A stretch of DNA of 40,055 nt from Cyanobacteria bacterium QS_8_64_29. GTDB taxonomy: Bacteria > Cyanobacteriota > Cyanobacteriia > Cyanobacteriales > Rubidibacteraceae. The stretch is from assembly GCA_003022125.1 (NCBI GenBank), contig PXQH01000061.1:1-40055 (forward strand). The letters are read 5' to 3'. A model generated the notes under the pieces. The model saw nothing but the letters and a program-made list of their open reading frames with translations. It was not told the origin of the DNA and did not search any database. This document shows, piece after piece, positions 9,151 to 16,471 of the stretch; positions within the stretch are counted from its first letter, which is position 1, and the number at the start of each line of letters is the position of its first letter. The position numbers were made by a program, and so were the translations under genes.

Positions 9151-12100
9151 ATGATCCCACTGCAGCTGACCCTCCGCAACTTTCTCAGCTACCGCGAAGC
9201 CTCGCTGGATTTTCGCGGCTTCAAAACGGCCTGCATCTGCGGTCCCAACGGCGCCGGGAAGTCCTCGCTGCTCGAGGCCATCACCTGGGTGCTGTGGGGC
9301 CAGACGCGCGCCACTGCCGAAGATGACGTTATCCACGCTGGCGCCACTGAAGCGCGGGTTGATTTCACCTTTGCCACCGACGGCCAAACCTATCGCGCCA
9401 TCCGCAGCCGCCGGCGCGGCCAAAGCAGCGCCCTGGAGCTGCAAGTCCAGACCGAGAGCGGCGAGTTCCGTTCCATCTCGGAGCGGGGCGTGCGCGCGAC
9501 CCAGCGCCAGATCGTGTCGCTGCTCAAGCTGGACTACGATACGTTCATCAACTCGGCCTACCTGCGCCAAGGGCGGGCGGACGAGTTCATGCTGCGGCGC
9601 CCCAGCGAGCGCAAGCAGATCCTGGCCGAGTTGCTCAAGCTCGATCGCTACGAAACCCTTGCCGAGCAGGCTAACGATCGCGCCAAGCAGTACAAGGGCC
9701 AAGCCGAGCAGCTGGCGCAGCAGTTGAGCGCCCTGGAGCAGCAGCTGCAGCAAGCCGAGAGCCTCGCCCAAGAGCGCGAACAGCTCGAATCGCAAATCGA
9801 AGCGCTGCGCGCGGCTCAAGCCAGCGATCGCCAGGAGCGGGAGCGGTTGCAAGCGCTCGACAACCAGCGCCAGACCCTGCAGCAGCAGCTCGCCTGGCAG
9901 CAGCAGCAGTACCAGACCCTGGCGCAGGACTGCGACCGGCTCGTCCAAGACCGCGATGCCGTGCAAGCCCAGCTCGATGAGCTGCAGCAGCTGCTCGAGC
10001 GCGAGACCGAGATCGCGGCAGGTTACGAAACCTACCAGCGCCTGCAGCGCGAGGAGCAGGCGCTGGCAAGCCAGTTCCAGCAGTACCAGGAGGCCCAGCA
10101 GCAGCGGCAGGCGCTCCAGCAGCAGCAAACCGAGCAAATCAACGCCCAAACCCAGCAGCTGCAGCAGATTCAGGCACAACTCGATTCGCTCGAGCAGCAG
10201 GAGAGCGAGCTGCAGCGGATTTTGGGGCGCGCCGACAAAATCGCCCGCGGACTGGAGCAGCTCCAGCACCACCGCCAGCGCTTGCAGCAGCTCGACGAGC
10301 GCCAGCAGCAGGCCTCACCGCTGCTGGAGCGGCGCGATACCCTCAGCCCCGAAATCGAGCGCGAGCGGGCCCAACTCGAGGCGCGCTGCAACCAGCTCAA
10401 ATCGCAACAAGCGCAGCTGGACGAGCAACTCGCCCAGGCCCCACAACTGCGCTCGCGCCTGCAGGCGATCGAGGCCGAGATTGCATTGCTACAGAGCAAG
10501 CAAACCTACCGCCAGCGCGTCCAGGAAAAGGGCCAAGAGCGCAAAACGTTTCAGGAACGCTTGCAAGAAACCCAGCGCCGCTACCAGGAGCAGCTGTCGG
10601 CGCTCAGCCAGCAGCTAGAGCAGTTGCAGGCCAACAACGCGGTTTGCCCGCTGTGCGAGCGTCCGCTCGATGAGGCACACAAGCAGCATGTCGTCCAAAA
10701 AACCGAGACCGAGCAACAGCAACTGCAAGAGCAGTTCTGGGTGCTGCGCGAGCAGCTAGCCGCTTGCGAGCGCGAGCTGCAAGTGCTGCGCTCGGAGTAC
10801 CATCAGCTGAGCGAGGCGCTGGATCCTTACGAATCGCGACTCCAGCAGCGCGGGGAACTGTCAGCGCAGCTGGCCCATGCTGGCGATCACGAGCAGCAGC
10901 GGCAGGCGATCGCGGACGAGATCGCCCAACTCGAGCGCTCGCTGGCTCAGGGGGACTATGCTCCCGAGCTGCAGGCCGAGTACCAGCAAGTGGAGGCTCA
11001 GCGGCAGGAGCTGGGCTACGACGAACAGACCCACGCCCTGGCGCGCGAGGAGGTGGAGCGCTGGCGTTGGGCCGAGATCGAACAGGCCAAACTGGAAGAT
11101 GCCCGACAGCGCCAGGCCCATCTCGCGTCGCAAAAACCCCAGCTGCAGCAGCAGCACCAGCAGTGCCAACAGCAGATCGAGCACCTGCGCGCGGACTCGG
11201 AACTGCAGCAGCAAATTGAAGCGCTCGACCGGCAGCTGGCCGAGTTGGGGTACGAGCACTCGCATCACAACCAAGTCCTGACCCAACTGCAGCAGGCCCG
11301 CGCCTGGGAAACCCGCTACCAAGAGCTGCAGCGCGCCCGGCAGCAGGCCCCCGAGCTGGCCCAGCGCCAGCAGGAGCTCGAGCAGCGCCGCCAGGCGCGC
11401 GCGGCCGAGCGCGAGCGGGCCCAACAGCAGCTCGAGACCCTACAAACGCAGCTAGCCCAAACCCAAGACTGCCGCGCCGACATCGAGCACTGCGAGGAGC
11501 AGATCCAGCAGCGCCAGCAGCAGCTAGACGACCTGCTCGCCCAGCAGGGGCGCCTGGAGCAGCGCAGCGCCCAACTCGAACAAGTGCGCGCCCAGTACGA
11601 GCAGGCCCAGCAGCAGCAGCAGACGGCGCAGCGGCAGCAGCGGATCTATCGCGAACTCGCCCAAGCCTTTGGCAAAAACGGCATCCAGACGTTGATGATT
11701 GAGAATGTCCTGCCGCAGCTCGAGACCCAGACCAACCAAATCCTGTCCCAGCTGACCGGCAACCAGCTGCACGTTCAGTTTGTGACTCAAAAGGCCAGCA
11801 AGGGTCGCTCGAAAAAGCAGAGCAAGTCCATCGACACCCTCGAGATCCGGATTGCAGACCCGCAAGGGACCCGCGCTTACGAAACCTACTCCGGTGGCGA
11901 GGGCTTTCGCATCAACTTTGCCATCCGCTTGGCGCTGGCCCGAATTCTGGCGCAGCGGGCGGGAACGTCGCTGCAGATGCTGATCGTGGACGAAGGCTTT
12001 GGCACCCAGGACGATCAAGGCTGCGAGCGCCTGATTGCCGCCATTGGCGCGATCGCGCCCGAGTTCTCCTGCATTTTGGCGGTCACGCACATGCCGCAGT

Positions 12101-12174
12101 TTAAAGAGGCGTTTGCCCACCGCATTGAGGTGCGCAAGACCCAGCAGGGCTCGGCGCTGAGCGTGGCGGCCTAA
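9151..12174 (+). CDS. sbcC: SbcC-like SMC-family exonuclease subunit
   Basis: The ATPase subunit of the SbcCD (Rad50/Mre11-like) nuclease that processes DNA ends and hairpins. It is 1007 residues long. The Walker A GPNGAGKSS is at residues 31-39. Two long Gln/Glu-rich coiled coils flank the zinc hook CPLC at C499/C502. The C-terminal lobe has the ABC signature YSGGEGFRINFAIRLALA and Walker B MLIVDEGFGTQDDQG. The coiled coil is extraordinarily rich in CAG codons, which leaves long spurious frames open on the other strand. The nuclease partner sbcD is not in the window. The last four bases overlap the convergent cobW gene. Confidence 0.95.
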   Translation: MIPLQLTLRNFLSYREASLDFRGFKTACICGPNGAGKSSLLEAITWVLWGQTRATAEDDVIHAGATEARVDFTFATDGQTYRAIRSRRRGQSSALELQVQTESGEFRSISERGVRATQRQIVSLLKLDYDTFINSAYLRQGRADEFMLRRPSERKQILAELLKLDRYETLAEQANDRAKQYKGQAEQLAQQLSALEQQLQQAESLAQEREQLESQIEALRAAQASDRQERERLQALDNQRQTLQQQLAWQQQQYQTLAQDCDRLVQDRDAVQAQLDELQQLLERETEIAAGYETYQRLQREEQALASQFQQYQEAQQQRQALQQQQTEQINAQTQQLQQIQAQLDSLEQQESELQRILGRADKIARGLEQLQHHRQRLQQLDERQQQASPLLERRDTLSPEIERERAQLEARCNQLKSQQAQLDEQLAQAPQLRSRLQAIEAEIALLQSKQTYRQRVQEKGQERKTFQERLQETQRRYQEQLSALSQQLEQLQANNAVCPLCERPLDEAHKQHVVQKTETEQQQLQEQFWVLREQLAACERELQVLRSEYHQLSEALDPYESRLQQRGELSAQLAHAGDHEQQRQAIADEIAQLERSLAQGDYAPELQAEYQQVEAQRQELGYDEQTHALAREEVERWRWAEIEQAKLEDARQRQAHLASQKPQLQQQHQQCQQQIEHLRADSELQQQIEALDRQLAELGYEHSHHNQVLTQLQQARAWETRYQELQRARQQAPELAQRQQELEQRRQARAAERERAQQQLETLQTQLAQTQDCRADIEHCEEQIQQRQQQLDDLLAQQGRLEQRSAQLEQVRAQYEQAQQQQQTAQRQQRIYRELAQAFGKNGIQTLMIENVLPQLETQTNQILSQLTGNQLHVQFVTQKASKGRSKKQSKSIDTLEIRIADPQGTRAYETYSGGEGFRINFAIRLALARILAQRAGTSLQMLIVDEGFGTQDDQGCERLIAAIGAIAPEFSCILAVTHMPQFKEAFAHRIEVRKTQQGSALSVAA

Positions 12175-13223
12175 ACTGGGGCCGGTTCGCCGCTTAGGGC
12201 AGCCGCAATCCGCTCGCGATCCAGATCGCGACCGATCAGCACCAGGCGCGTCTGGCGCGCTTCCGCCGGATCCCAGTGCCGGTCGTAGAACGACTCCAGC
12301 CGATCACCGGCACCCTGCAGCACCAAGCGCATGGGCTTGCCGGGGACGTTGACCAAGCCCTTGATGCGATAAATCTCGTGCTGCCGCACTAGCTGGCGCA
12401 GCGTTCGGATCAGCGCCTGCGGCTCAAAGCCTCGGTCGAAGCAGAACTGCACGGCGCCGATGCGGTCGTCGTGTTCGTGGTCGTCCTCGGTGTCGTGGTG
12501 GCTGGGCCGGGCTGCCAAATCCCCTTCCACGCCAGCGTTGACCCCCAGCAGGATCTCGGGATCCACCCGGCCCTGGTGGCAGGGCAGGATCTTGACCCGC
12601 TCGAGCGCCTGCTGGTGCAGCACCTCGAGCGCGCGCTGGCGGGCCTCGCCATCCACCAAGTCCGCCTTGGTCAGCAGCACCAAGTCGGCGCAGGCCAGCT
12701 GGTCGGCAAACAGTTCTTCGAGGGGCGTCTCGTGCTCCAGGTTGGGATCGGCCTGGCGCTGGCGCTCGAGCGCGCTGCGATCGCCGGCGACCGCCCCGCT
12801 CGCCACGGCCTGGCAGTCGACCACGGTAGCGACGCCATCGACAGTGGCGCCATTACGGATCTCGGGCCAGCGGAACGCTTGCACCAGCGGCTTGGGTAGC
12901 GCTAGCCCCGAGGTCTCGACAACGATGCAGTCGAGGCGATCGCGGCGCTGCAGCAGCTCGCGCATGGTGGGGAAAAACTCTTCTTGCACGGTGCAGCAGA
13001 GGCAGCCGTTGGCCAGCTCGACCACGTTCTCAGAGGCCGCTTCCGGCTCCTCGCAAATTTGGCAGTCGCGCAGCAGCTCGCCGTCGATGCCAACCTCGCC
13101 AAACTCGTTGACCAGCACCGCAATGCGCCGCCCCCCATTGTTCTGCAACAGGTGGCGGATGAGCGTGGTCTTGCCGGCGCCGAGAAAGCCGGTAATGACC
13201 GTAACCGGGATTTTGGCAGCCAT
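12171..13223 (-). CDS. cobW: CobW-type G3E-family GTPase metallochaperone
   Basis: A 350-residue P-loop GTPase thought to deliver metal, cobalt in the CobW branch, to a client enzyme such as cobaltochelatase. The P-loop is GFLGAGKTT. The metal-binding CxCC motif is present in ANGCLCCTV, a TKAD guanine-specificity motif is present, and a His/Asp-rich metal patch (SHHDTEDDHEHDD) precedes the CobW C-terminal domain (FDRGFEPQALI through RLVLIGRDLD). The ATG at 13223 follows GAGGAG. It is the last gene of a tight minus-strand series: hupE, 8 bp gap, DUF2808, 13 bp gap, cobW, all downstream of a B12 riboswitch. That context supports a cobalt or B12 role over other G3E metals. Confidence 0.9.
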   Translation of the reverse strand: MAAKIPVTVITGFLGAGKTTLIRHLLQNNGGRRIAVLVNEFGEVGIDGELLRDCQICEEPEAASENVVELANGCLCCTVQEEFFPTMRELLQRRDRLDCIVVETSGLALPKPLVQAFRWPEIRNGATVDGVATVVDCQAVASGAVAGDRSALERQRQADPNLEHETPLEELFADQLACADLVLLTKADLVDGEARQRALEVLHQQALERVKILPCHQGRVDPEILLGVNAGVEGDLAARPSHHDTEDDHEHDDRIGAVQFCFDRGFEPQALIRTLRQLVRQHEIYRIKGLVNVPGKPMRLVLQGAGDRLESFYDRHWDPAEARQTRLVLIGRDLDRERIAAALSGEPAPV

Positions 13224-13236
13224 CAGTGCGTTCTCC

Positions 13237-13779
13237 TCAAAACAGCGAACCATCCGGGCGATCGAACTGCAGCCGCCCGATGCCCAAGTACAGCCCCTGC
13301 GCGCGCTCTCCTGCCGGATAAGCCGTTACCCCAAACAGATAAATGCCGCCGCTAGTGGGGTTTTGCCGCGACCGGATGCCGACGGTGAGCGTCGTGCCGG
13401 GCGGCGCCGGTTCGTCCAGGACCAGCGACACTGCCGATCCTTCGCGCTCGACAGCCTGTAGCGGGAAGGCGCGGCCGCGATTGTTGGGAACGCCGGCAAA
13501 GGCCACTGCCTCGTCGCGGAACCGCAGGGGTTCGAGGCCCTCGCGCTGGCGGATGCGCACGCGCTGGAGCGGCTCGCCAGCATTCTCAGGCAGCCGCAGC
13601 GTGAAGTAGTAATCAACCAGCGGCGCGCCCGGTTCGTCATGGAGGGCCCGGGCCTGGCGCAGGCGCGGCGCCGCCTCAAAGGCAACCGTCCCGTCAGGCG
13701 CCTGCAGGGCGCGCACTGCTGCCGGGACAGTTCCCAGCGCGCTCAGCGAGAGCACCAGCAGCCACCCGGCACGCAGCAT
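13237..13779 (-). CDS. Exported DUF2808 protein in the B12-riboswitch operon
   Basis: A 180-residue protein of the cyanobacterial DUF2808 family, function unknown. A signal peptide (MLRAGWLLVLSLSALGTVPA) predicts export to the periplasm. The family core is visible as LVDYYFTLRLPENAGEPLQR, a TTLTVGIRSRQNP turn, and the conserved end GIYLFGVTAYPAGE and LYLGIGRLQF. It lies 8 bp after hupE and 13 bp before cobW on the same strand. It is therefore almost certainly co-transcribed with a cobalt permease and a metallochaperone under a cobalamin riboswitch. A role in periplasmic cobalt handling is an inference from that context alone. The protein shows no obvious His/Cys metal-binding cluster. Confidence 0.85.
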   Translation of the reverse strand: MLRAGWLLVLSLSALGTVPAAVRALQAPDGTVAFEAAPRLRQARALHDEPGAPLVDYYFTLRLPENAGEPLQRVRIRQREGLEPLRFRDEAVAFAGVPNNRGRAFPLQAVEREGSAVSLVLDEPAPPGTTLTVGIRSRQNPTSGGIYLFGVTAYPAGERAQGLYLGIGRLQFDRPDGSLF

Positions 13780-13787
13780 CCCGCCTT

Positions 13788-14477
13788 CTAGAGCGCGGCG
13801 CTCAAAAAGACTAGGCCAGCGGCACTGGCAGCAGCGCCCGCGTAGCGCAGCAGGGATACCCCGGCCGCGCGTTCGATGAGGCGATTGCCCACCGCCAGCG
13901 CTGCCAACGCAATCGCTAACTGCGTCAGGCTAAACCCAATCAGGTAGGCCAGCAGCGGCGCCATCTGGGCGCCGATGATGGCTTCCCCGTAGGCGTAGCC
14001 GTGGAACAAGCCAGCCAAGGCAGCCAGGCCGGCAATGACTAGGCCGTACGGCCGCCGGGGCTGGCCCGCCCGCGCCCGCACGGCCAGCAGGCCGCCAAAG
14101 ACGACTGTCGAGAGGGCAACGCCCGCTTGGGTTGCCGGCAGGGCGCCGCCGCCCAGGTGAAAGCTCGTTCCGGCGAGTGCGGCGGCCACAAACGCCAGCG
14201 GCACCACCCAGCCGCGCGTCCAACCCGTCGCAATCAGGCCGCTAAGTAGAACGAAAGCCAGGCGCTCGGGCTCGATAACGGGGTGGACCAGCCCCGAGAG
14301 CAAGCCGGGCCAAAAGCTATCGGGGGTCGTGCCGCCATAGGGGTGGTGGGCCGTTGCTTGCTGCGCAAAGCCCAACGATAGGGTCGCGGTTGCGGCCGCA
14401 ACCCCCACATCGCGCCACGTTGTACCGCGGGCACGGTTGCGATTGCGGGGCTCGAACCAAGGGGAAAGCATAGGCAT
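13788..14477 (-). CDS. hupE: HupE/UreJ-family cobalt (or nickel) permease
   Basis: An integral membrane protein of about 229 residues with roughly six to seven hydrophobic segments. The N-terminus, including ATATLSLGFAQQATA before AHHPYGGTTP, could be a cleavable signal. HupE/UreJ proteins import Ni or Co. Here the upstream cobalamin riboswitch points to cobalt. The conserved HPV is present in GLVHPVIEPERLAF, but the usual following Gly-x-Asp-His is replaced by EPER. A later histidine-containing segment, AGLFHGYAYGEA, is intact. Start codons at 14477 and 14471 are both possible. The transcript leader between riboswitch and start is about 240 nt. First gene of the hupE-DUF2808-cobW operon. Confidence 0.85.
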   Translation of the reverse strand: MPMLSPWFEPRNRNRARGTTWRDVGVAAATATLSLGFAQQATAHHPYGGTTPDSFWPGLLSGLVHPVIEPERLAFVLLSGLIATGWTRGWVVPLAFVAAALAGTSFHLGGGALPATQAGVALSTVVFGGLLAVRARAGQPRRPYGLVIAGLAALAGLFHGYAYGEAIIGAQMAPLLAYLIGFSLTQLAIALAALAVGNRLIERAAGVSLLRYAGAAASAAGLVFLSAAL

Positions 14478-14627
14478 GTTGGGGCGTATCGCGCTGGGCG
14501 CGTTGTTGCGACAATTAAGCTGTCGATCGAGCGTCGGCCTCCCGCCCGCCAAGCGGTTGCTGGGCCAGCGTTGCCTCACGCCGTTGCGGGGCAGCGATCG
14601 CGGCGCAACAGGCAGCTCGGCAGGCGC

Positions 14628-14693
14628 TCAGGCAGCGGTTGCGGCGGGCCAGCTCGCGCGCGCTAGGGGATTCAAAAAGCGTTCGAACGCCAT
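14628..14693 (-). CDS. Possible 21-codon leader ORF between riboswitch and hupE
   Basis: A short frame (MAFERFLNPLARASWPAATAA) starts at an ATG preceded by GAGG with normal spacing. It lies about 30 nt past the last conserved riboswitch element and 150 nt before hupE. It could be a leader peptide through which the riboswitch controls translation. Chance occurrence is quite possible, and there is no homology evidence. Confidence 0.2.
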   Translation of the reverse strand: MAFERFLNPLARASWPAATAA

Positions 14694-14719
14694 CCGTACC
14701 TCGCAGATGCAGCTTGCGT

Positions 14720-14865
14720 TGTTCTGCCGGCGGGCATTCTGGCTTAGCGGCCCTTGGGCCCCATCACAGCTGCGGGACAGCGCCGGCCTCGCACCGGCCT
14801 TTCCCCGTTACTTCCGATGGCTGCTCCCCATCGGAACCGGCAAGGTAGCCTCTAACCCTATCACA
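14720..14865 (-). promoter_or_regulatory. Cobalamin (AdoCbl) riboswitch
   Basis: Read on the minus strand, this region contains the consensus order of a B12 aptamer. A 5' GGTTCCGATGGGGAGC hairpin pairs with GCCATCGGAAG. Next come ACGGGGAAAGGCCGGTGCGA, then GCCGGCGCTGTCCCGCAGCT and GTGATGGGGC, and finally AAGCCAGAATGCCCGCC. These correspond to the invariant GGGAA, CGGTGCGA, the B12 box GCCGGCGCTG(T)CCCGCA, CTGTGA and AAGCCAG elements. High cobalamin would be expected to repress the downstream hupE-DUF2808-cobW operon. The expression platform was not resolved; no clear intrinsic terminator follows within the leader. Confidence 0.92.
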
Positions 14866-15127
14866 CGCGATCGCCACCGGGCGCACTGCAGCGAGCGACC
14901 CCCATGCCAGTCGGCATGGGGCAAGGACAGCGATTGCGCGGCAGTTAGCGCGTCAGGAGGGCTGCGATTCGGGCGGGGCGATCACGCGGTCGATGCCCTG
15001 CTGGCTTCAACAACACTGCAGCAGGAATCCCCGATTCAAATCTCTGATTGAATTGCGGGAGGAATGTTGCAAGACACAGCGACAGTCTTCACGCTACGCC
15101 AGAAAACGATCGCCTATTGAAAACTGG
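14866..15127. other. Intergenic region with one strong hairpin
   Basis: The region upstream of the riboswitch carries its presumed promoter. It also has a perfect 9-bp hairpin, CCCCATGCC (14900-14908), loop AGTC, GGCATGGGG (14913-14921). Because a tnpB remnant follows on the plus strand, the hairpin could be a surviving subterminal palindrome of an IS200/IS605-type element, but it could equally be unrelated. I see no gene here. Confidence 0.4.
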
Positions 15128-15433
15128 ATGGCTGAACCCCAGACTATAACGGTCGCCTGCAAGTTGAAGGCCAGCAAGGAAGCTGCATGGGAGATTGACG
15201 ATACCCTCTCGACCTTTAATACCAATTCTCGTGGCTTGTGCACTAGATTCCGATCTCCGGAACTACCTCAATATGGGAGTCATGTTGTTTAGCAAGCGTG
15301 CATCCGCTGCTCAAATTGGTATAACTCGGCTTGCGAGTGGGCAAACCAGAATGTGCCGCCCAAGCTGGCTAACAAGACCGCGATGCAGTCGTTTGTCTAT
15401 CAGCAAGTGCGGGCAATGCAGCTTTTGCTATAA
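15128..15433 (+). pseudogene. N-terminal remnant of an IS200/IS605 tnpB (OrfB) gene
   Basis: The ATG at 15128 opens a typical cyanobacterial TnpB beginning: TITVACKLKASKEAAWEIDD, then TLSTF. A 102-bp element interrupts it after codon 30. On the other side the frame resumes at 15325 as SACEWANQNVPPKLANKTAM, then QSFVYQQVRAM, ending in a TAA at 15431-15433. TnpB is an RNA-guided endonuclease associated with IS605-type transposons. Only about 70 of roughly 400 codons survive, with none of the RuvC catalytic residues. No tnpA is visible. Confidence 0.8.
15220..15321. mobile_element. 102-bp MITE-like element inserted in the tnpB remnant
   Basis: The element begins TACCAATT and ends AATTGGTA, perfect 8-bp terminal inverted repeats. 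It is flanked by TAA on both sides (15217-15219 and 15322-15324), a likely 3-bp target duplication; a TA duplication is an alternative reading of the same edges. Excising the element plus one TAA restores the TnpB frame exactly. It is too short to encode a transposase, so it must have been mobilised in trans by an unidentified element with the same ends. Confidence 0.75.
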
Positions 15434-15475
15434 AGCAATGTCAAGCCTGGCTGGCCGCGATCGGCTAGCAGGCAA

Positions 15476-16471
<996 letters not shown>

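Follow-up and report, generated by a model that had tools for sequence, protein, structure and literature searches.

A lineage-specific B12-riboswitch operon with a DUF2808 gene between hupE and cobW in one cyanobacterial family

The DNA analyzed here (the window) is an entire 40,055-base contig from the 2.22-Mb genome of Cyanobacteria bacterium QS_8_64_29, and its minus strand carries a cobalamin (B12) riboswitch followed by hupE, a gene of the function-unknown family DUF2808, and cobW. This arrangement, conserved among the window's relatives, is a lineage-specific variant of the known cyanobacterial B12/cobalt operon. The explanation that fits best, which we hold with about even confidence, is that it forms a B12-repressed cobalt-supply operon of one cyanobacterial family, composed of a leader open reading frame (ORF), hupE, DUF2808, and cobW, into which DUF2808 was recruited to assist at the envelope and not to carry cobalt via His, Cys, or Met residues.

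Results

All operon features of the window lie on the minus strand. The Rfam run places the cobalamin aptamer (RF00174) at 14712-14856 (63.2 bits against a gathering cutoff of 31.5, E 1.7e-13, full model 1-189), eight to nine bases off the 14720-14865 given in a preliminary description of this DNA, and it is the sole RF00174 match found in the window's genome. Behind it stands an expression-platform hairpin, CATCTG-CGAGGTA-CGGATG (14691-14709), with the ribosome-binding GAGG (14699-14702) in its loop and an ATG (14691-14693) on its 3' arm, which would open a putative leader ORF of 21 codons plus stop (14628-14693). The HupE/UreJ permease gene, hupE, spans 13788-14477 if ATG 14477 is taken as its start (the longest frame begins at GTG 14579), and its product matches Pfam HupE_UreJ (PF04955) with 108.5 bits (cutoff 23). 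The DUF2808 gene (13237-13779) encodes 180 amino acids with, by eye, a signal-peptide-like N-terminal stretch, and matches PF10989 with 133.2 bits (cutoff 25.3). The 350-residue product of cobW (12171-13223) is identified by TIGR02475 (489 bits, cutoff 332.1) and by NGCLCCTVQ, which contains the CxCC metal motif of CobW (PMC7689651). Gaps of 8 bp (hupE end 13788 to DUF2808 start 13779) and 13 bp (DUF2808 end 13237 to cobW ATG 13223) separate the three genes, so that the gene order, the spacing, and the CobW assignment made earlier all stand. The earlier placement of the aptamer directly before hupE is right as to order, but the hairpin and the putative leader ORF intervene, and hupE is therefore not the first start codon behind the riboswitch. 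A scan of 12000-15500 for a separate DUF2808 promoter gave no sites against 0.4 expected, an expectation low enough to make the scan uninformative. B12 control of the DUF2808 transcript is putative.

The arrangement is conserved in a sample of nine genomes across four genera of the window's family. DUF2808 immediately precedes cobW on the same strand in all eight genomes where the contig reaches far enough; that of the ninth (G149) stops inside DUF2808. Riboswitch, hupE, and DUF2808 follow one another in seven of the nine, and riboswitch and DUF2808, with cobW where the contig continues, are found together in eight. Wherever both genes are present, hupE and DUF2808 overlap or lie at most 18 nucleotides (nt) apart (7/7), and six of the nine genomes have no RF00174 match besides the operon riboswitch. 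In one relative (G151) the order is riboswitch, DUF1636, DUF2808, and cobW, with hupE gone, and in another (G146) DUF2808 and cobW stand alone; a HupE search gave no match in either genome, and DUF2808 is thus retained in two family genomes without hupE. The flanks are mostly unshared, since 15 of 71 mechanically chosen ORFs (at least 90 amino acids) have a homologue at another family locus, against all of the listed operon genes. Eight of these 15 ORFs are shared by G146 and G148, four are transposase-like by eye (G121 and G147), and three belong to one family present in G146, G147, and G149. With mostly different flanks in nine genomes, chance adjacency of DUF2808 with the operon is ruled out. 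The gene is under purifying selection in the relatives: dN/dS (NG86; five relatives, the window not among them; nine of ten pairs computable, the tenth saturated) is 0.16-0.29 for DUF2808, close to the range for hupE (0.10-0.22), and 0.04-0.07 for cobW, values that are rough because dS mostly exceeds 1.

Conservation within a family could also arise if DUF2808 were a hitchhiker, that is, an envelope protein general to cyanobacteria whose gene landed once between hupE and cobW in the family ancestor and was kept for its own function, with no cobalt or B12 role. We consider this a serious alternative, though less probable than recruitment. The persistence of DUF2808 where hupE is absent fits it, as does the distribution of the family outside this lineage described below. 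However, the hitchhiker does not readily account for an adjacency to cobW kept in every continuing contig despite mostly reshuffled flanks, for the tight spacing to hupE, or for a DUF2808 gene still behind the riboswitch in G151 after hupE has gone.

The predicted structure bears on what the protein might do. An AlphaFold2 model of the DUF2808 protein, built from 66 sequences, is a beta-sandwich with all-beta structure and a mean pLDDT of 85.9. VIA-align scores YcnI highest, at Z 12.2 (rmsd 2.5 across 115 aligned residues, 10% identity); behind it come TTHA1873, whose function is unknown (Z 11.7), a protein from Nocardia (Z 11.4), and many Ig-like adhesin domains (Z about 9-10). In Foldseek, TTHA1873 leads with a TM-score of 0.47 over the model, and YcnI comes 11th with 0.46. 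The likeness to YcnI and TTHA1873 is one of similar arrangement, not necessarily of fold family, and gives no indication of function. A Pfam search of the DUF2808 protein up to E 1 returned DUF2808 alone and no match to the DUF1775 profile, and a sequence search against PDB chains gave no match up to E 10.

The same likeness underlies a further alternative, that DUF2808 binds periplasmic cobalt and hands it to HupE, or senses cobalt, by analogy with what is proposed for YcnI, copper, and YcnJ. YcnI, the best VIA-align match, is an exported protein that binds copper, and its gene accompanies that of the importer YcnJ; the tight hupE-DUF2808 spacing would suit such a partnership. However, YcnI binds Cu(II) via its N-terminal His27 and Glu50, with Trp137 nearby (PMC8424229), and operon-type DUF2808 has no conserved counterpart of His27, its alignment with YcnI beginning at model residue 39, in mid-chain. 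The seven intact operon-type proteins hold zero to two His each and no Cys beyond residue 25, and, but for Met in the start region, none of their alignment columns conserves His, Cys, or Met, which makes a cobalt carrier unlikely. The one His column that reaches 70% in the 66-row DUF2808 alignment is kept by a single operon-type protein of the seven (G054). Moreover, no sequence-level tie leads to any solved structure, and DUF2808 persists without hupE in G146 and G151. Direct cobalt handling by DUF2808, whether the transfer or the sensing that had been suggested for it, is unlikely on this evidence, and we regard the carrier or sensor as improbable; recruitment as an envelope protein, or hitchhiking, fits better. 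Metal binding through carboxylate ligands is possible.

Several observations weigh against the recruitment of DUF2808 into a cobalt-supply operon, the first being its behavior elsewhere in the phylum. We sampled 146 cyanobacterial genomes, including the window's and two relatives; DUF2808 occurs in 63 of them (136 matches), of which 60 (130 matches) lie outside the window's family. Among these 60, cobW (E up to 1e-60) is present in 57, hupE in 39, and a riboswitch over cutoff in at least 50 by strict-filter scoring. The phylum riboswitch set comprises about 150 matches listed under strict filters, with listed matches over cutoff used for distances; the riboswitch rows of eight genomes without DUF2808 are left out (G013, G016, G017, G021, G035, G053, G138, and G140), and two of these (G035 and G053) each have hupE on a different contig from the riboswitch. 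No cobW, hupE, or riboswitch among the matches listed lies less than 4.9 kb from the start of any of the 130 outside DUF2808 matches, other cobalt/B12 genes not having been searched nearby. The nearest start-to-start distances are 5.0 kb to a riboswitch among the matches listed (G085), 7.8 kb to cobW (G008), and 8.3 kb to hupE (G119), and listed riboswitch matches under cutoff are at least 54 kb from any DUF2808 on the same contig. Likewise, neither hupE nor cobW was found in any of 71 named loci of relatives of the window's DUF2808 (flank up to 6 kb, some shortened by contig ends), searched with the window's HupE and CobW only against mechanically chosen ORFs. A phylum-wide link of DUF2808 to cobW, hupE, or the riboswitch is thus unsupported in 60 outside genomes and 71 loci, and on this sample the linkage is a property of the window's family. 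The membership of DUF2808 in a B12-riboswitch cobalt operon, as first described, therefore holds for one family (8/9 genomes) and, as far as cobW, hupE, and RF00174 go, was not found outside it; to that extent the neighbors of DUF2808 elsewhere are random with respect to B12 genes, the outcome named beforehand as refuting the interpretation. This distribution favors the hitchhiker, as does the fact that DUF2808 is often multicopy in cyanobacteria, with other gene settings.

Within the family, too, some evidence runs against the recruitment of DUF2808 as an envelope helper. The DUF2808-cobW pair of G146 lacks a riboswitch, the sole riboswitch of that genome preceding a cbiM, and in G150 two overlapping frames take the place of a single DUF2808 frame (L060:2091-2662), possibly through gene decay or sequencing error. 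Operon-type DUF2808 may have a single origin, which the DUF2808 tree (103 rows, several long branches; pieces shorter than 100 amino acids, such as that of G149, left out) does not prove. Foldseek TM-scores over the model are only 0.45-0.49 in the first ten rows, so the fold match is not close.

The HupE of the window's genome adds a further difficulty. According to a review (PMC7689651), the family signature HPxxGxDH lies in the first membrane helix, where the window's protein reads HPVIEPER and thus departs from it. For comparison, we used 92 riboswitch loci, 12 from the window's family and 80 from the phylum sample, the latter being the top-scoring among the matches listed, minus those of the window, G054, and G121, which are counted within the 12. 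Exactly this signature occurs in 23 of their 26 HupE frames; the exceptions are the window, G150 (HPVIALDH), and a fragment in G014, so that the relatives' HupE in the same operon keep it apart from G150. The window's protein is HupE-like, transport by this copy is putative, and the transporter may be altered or nonfunctional. With the signature lost, cobalt import by this copy is doubtful and the label "cobalt permease" given to it earlier is unsafe, although the PF04955 match bears out its family. Besides this single HupE, the genome encodes one CbiM elsewhere.

Other DUF2808 genes were observed in varied surroundings. The second DUF2808 of the window's genome (L065:5963-6571) is divergent from a pntA-like gene and stands beside rnpA- and yidC-like genes (by eye); the DUF2808 protein Sll0470 is reported to be encoded divergently from pntA (PMC6560206). 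DUF2808 also forms the C-terminal part of long proteins, in one case with an N-terminal caspase (Peptidase_C14) domain (L054:4965-6422) and in another, L057:6024-7886, resembling the first by eye. Two genes before DUF2808, 23 of the 71 named loci (L071-L137) have a gene of a small-membrane-protein cluster, in most with an opposite-strand gene between; one member, L117:4824-5132, is a GDT1-type cation antiporter, GDT1 being confirmed for L117 alone.

The hairpin behind the window's aptamer recurs widely. Allowing up to five mismatches, its motif is found at 81 of the 92 cyanobacterial riboswitch loci, with a mean top frequency per column of 0.92 against 0.34 for the downstream stretch, the former biased upward since loci were placed by motif similarity. 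Its stem comes in the versions TCTG/CAGA, TCCG/CGGA, and TCTA/TAGA. The exact 15-mer at 14692-14706 has 48 matches in the 146 genomes, against none for a reversed control, and 45 of the 48 adjoin an RF00174 match among those listed, one of them (G030) under cutoff; the other three adjoin none. No complementarity of the loop to aptamer L5 was seen by eye. The hairpin marks the start of an ORF of 90 codons or more at 42 of the 81 loci that have it, counting three with a cbtB-like frame instead, and the genes starting there are cbiM, hupE, DUF1636-like, btuB-like, and others. A 63-residue frame at one riboswitch hairpin (L172:180-368) has a weak CbtB match (23.4 bits, cutoff 27), and frames similar to it by eye occur in G014 and G129 as small cobalt-transporter-like genes directly under the riboswitch.

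At the remaining 39 loci, the window included, no long gene starts at the hairpin. Some of these are near copies of one another, and two are doubtful: L240, which ends with its contig and whose frame looks by eye like a broken DUF1636, and L247, where a long btuB-like frame covers the motif. In 33 of the 39, a short ORF begins at an ATG 6-15 nt after GAGG, whereas an ATG at such a distance occurs in 17 of 195 background windows. The ATG is partly explained by hairpin pairing because it sits on the 3' arm. The first gene starts 134-650 nt from the aptamer in 30 tabulated leader loci, metE being one example (L192). All nine motif-bearing family riboswitches, namely eight operon loci and the cbiM locus of G146, are of the leader-ORF kind; three more family riboswitches, two in G148 and one before metE in G147, have a diverged hairpin and are uncounted. 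In 22 of 30 loci (34 listed minus 4 near copies), leader frame 0 exceeds frame +2 in length (median 31 versus 10.5 codons, two-sided sign test P 0.016), but it does so in only five of nine loci of the window's family, which gives no support there for an open leader ORF.

Other modes of control and coding were considered for these leaders. Attenuation by intrinsic terminators is unsupported: terminator-like hairpins occur in 18 of 30 leaders where shuffling (eight times each) predicts 13.6, and the window region has 3 where 3.0 are expected. A leader peptide under amino-acid selection has no clear support: in six leader-ORF pairs, three sharing sequences, substitutions number 37, 35, and 43 by codon position, and a third-position excess appears in one pair. 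Three related leader ORFs before DUF1636-like genes (L221, L232, and L241) are all exactly 31 codons long, with no sign of selection at the amino-acid level, and the next 60 nt after them diverge (24-40 ungapped differences). A search for Rho gave no match over cutoff in 11 genomes (G149 excluded), the control output for Synechococcus elongatus not stating whether it passes the cutoff; the best weak match, 43 bits against 509, and its like are presumably related ATPases. From the end of the leader ORF to hupE there are 87-253 nt in seven family hupE loci, a spacing that argues against simple reinitiation.

Beyond the operon, a convergent SbcC/SMC-like gene (by eye; 9151-12174, plus strand) abuts the end of cobW, and a protochlorophyllide reductase-like gene (by eye) lies upstream of the riboswitch. 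In G121, a HEARO RNA (RF02033, 111.3 bits; L055:673-892) is found about 3.7 kb past the end of cobW.

Discussion

These results suggest how the operon might work as a unit. When B12 is plentiful, the aptamer would fold, the ribosome-binding site of the hairpin would become unavailable, and expression of the whole unit would fall. When it is scarce, HupE, in the relatives, would import cobalt, and CobW would pass it on for corrin synthesis. DUF2808 would have joined the unit in the family ancestor, most likely as a beta-sandwich protein exported to the periplasm or lumen, coexpressed with the cobalt genes and helping at the envelope, for example through protein-protein contacts.

The hairpin allows a broader and more tentative proposal, in which we have less than even confidence: cyanobacterial B12 riboswitches would share a near-invariant ribosome-loading hairpin (TCTG-CGAGGTA-CAGA, then ATG), and in up to half of the hairpin-bearing loci (39/81), the window's operon included, the riboswitch would gate not the first gene directly but the translation of a short leader ORF; the gene itself lies about 130-650 nt beyond the aptamer, and the bacteria would lack Rho. 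Closing of the hairpin by the B12-bound aptamer would stop ribosome loading, which at loci where the gene starts at the hairpin amounts to ordinary translational repression. At leader-ORF loci, some relay from leader to downstream gene would be needed, and our guess at a candidate is protection of the mRNA by translating ribosomes. If true, leader-ORF gating would add a second tier of control, and we did not find its mechanism described for cyanobacteria: literature on cyanobacterial cobalamin or B12 riboswitches combined with small ORFs, leader peptides, or upstream ORFs (uORFs) yielded nothing by title or abstract start, a search that left subscription journals uncovered and novelty unproven.

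Placing one lineage of a function-unknown cyanobacterial family in a regulon with a known signal, B12, gives it a simple first functional test, and the evidence counters the tempting reading of its product as a cobalt carrier. The shared hairpin and leader ORFs likewise offer a general, testable model for cyanobacterial B12 riboswitches, including those of metE, btuB-like genes, and cobalt transporters.

Comparison with known systems

Among systems already described, the closest are the cyanobacterial hupE/cobW operons under B12 riboswitches, which, like the window, bring together the riboswitch, a HupE-type permease, and CobW; a cyanobacterial cobalt importer HupE linked to B12 riboswitches is published (PMC7689651, PMC4284471). 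Among the matches listed, 22 of the 146 genomes have a hupE start no more than 1.5 kb from RF00174, and 20 have a cobW start no more than 3 kb from it; in three genomes (G033, G045, and G135) the riboswitch is followed by a frame that looks like DUF1636 by eye, then by hupE and cobW. The window differs from these in having DUF2808 between hupE and cobW and a leader ORF between riboswitch and hupE, and its type lacks DUF1636 in the operon, where it is seen in G151 alone.

For the leader ORFs, the B12 riboswitches of Mycobacterium tuberculosis provide a precedent, being able to act via uORFs (PMC11260477), and they are alike in having an expression platform that acts on a short upstream ORF. There, however, the ppe2 uORF overlaps its gene (AUGA) and acts mainly by termination-reinitiation, with Rho also considered (PMC11260477), whereas the leader ORF of the window's family ends well before hupE, at the distances given above, in genomes without an over-cutoff Rho match.

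For the protein itself, the copper protein YcnI (DUF1775) is comparable in having an exported domain of about 130 residues with a beta-sandwich arrangement similar to that modeled for DUF2808; in contrast, DUF2808 is 10% identical to it, lacks the N-terminal His brace, and shows no sequence match. The Sll0470-type DUF2808 beside pntA (PMC6560206) belongs to the same Pfam family and has a hydrophobic N terminus like that of the operon protein. The latter is nevertheless a different paralogue in a different setting, and the window's genome has the Sll0470-type setting as well, on contig C28.

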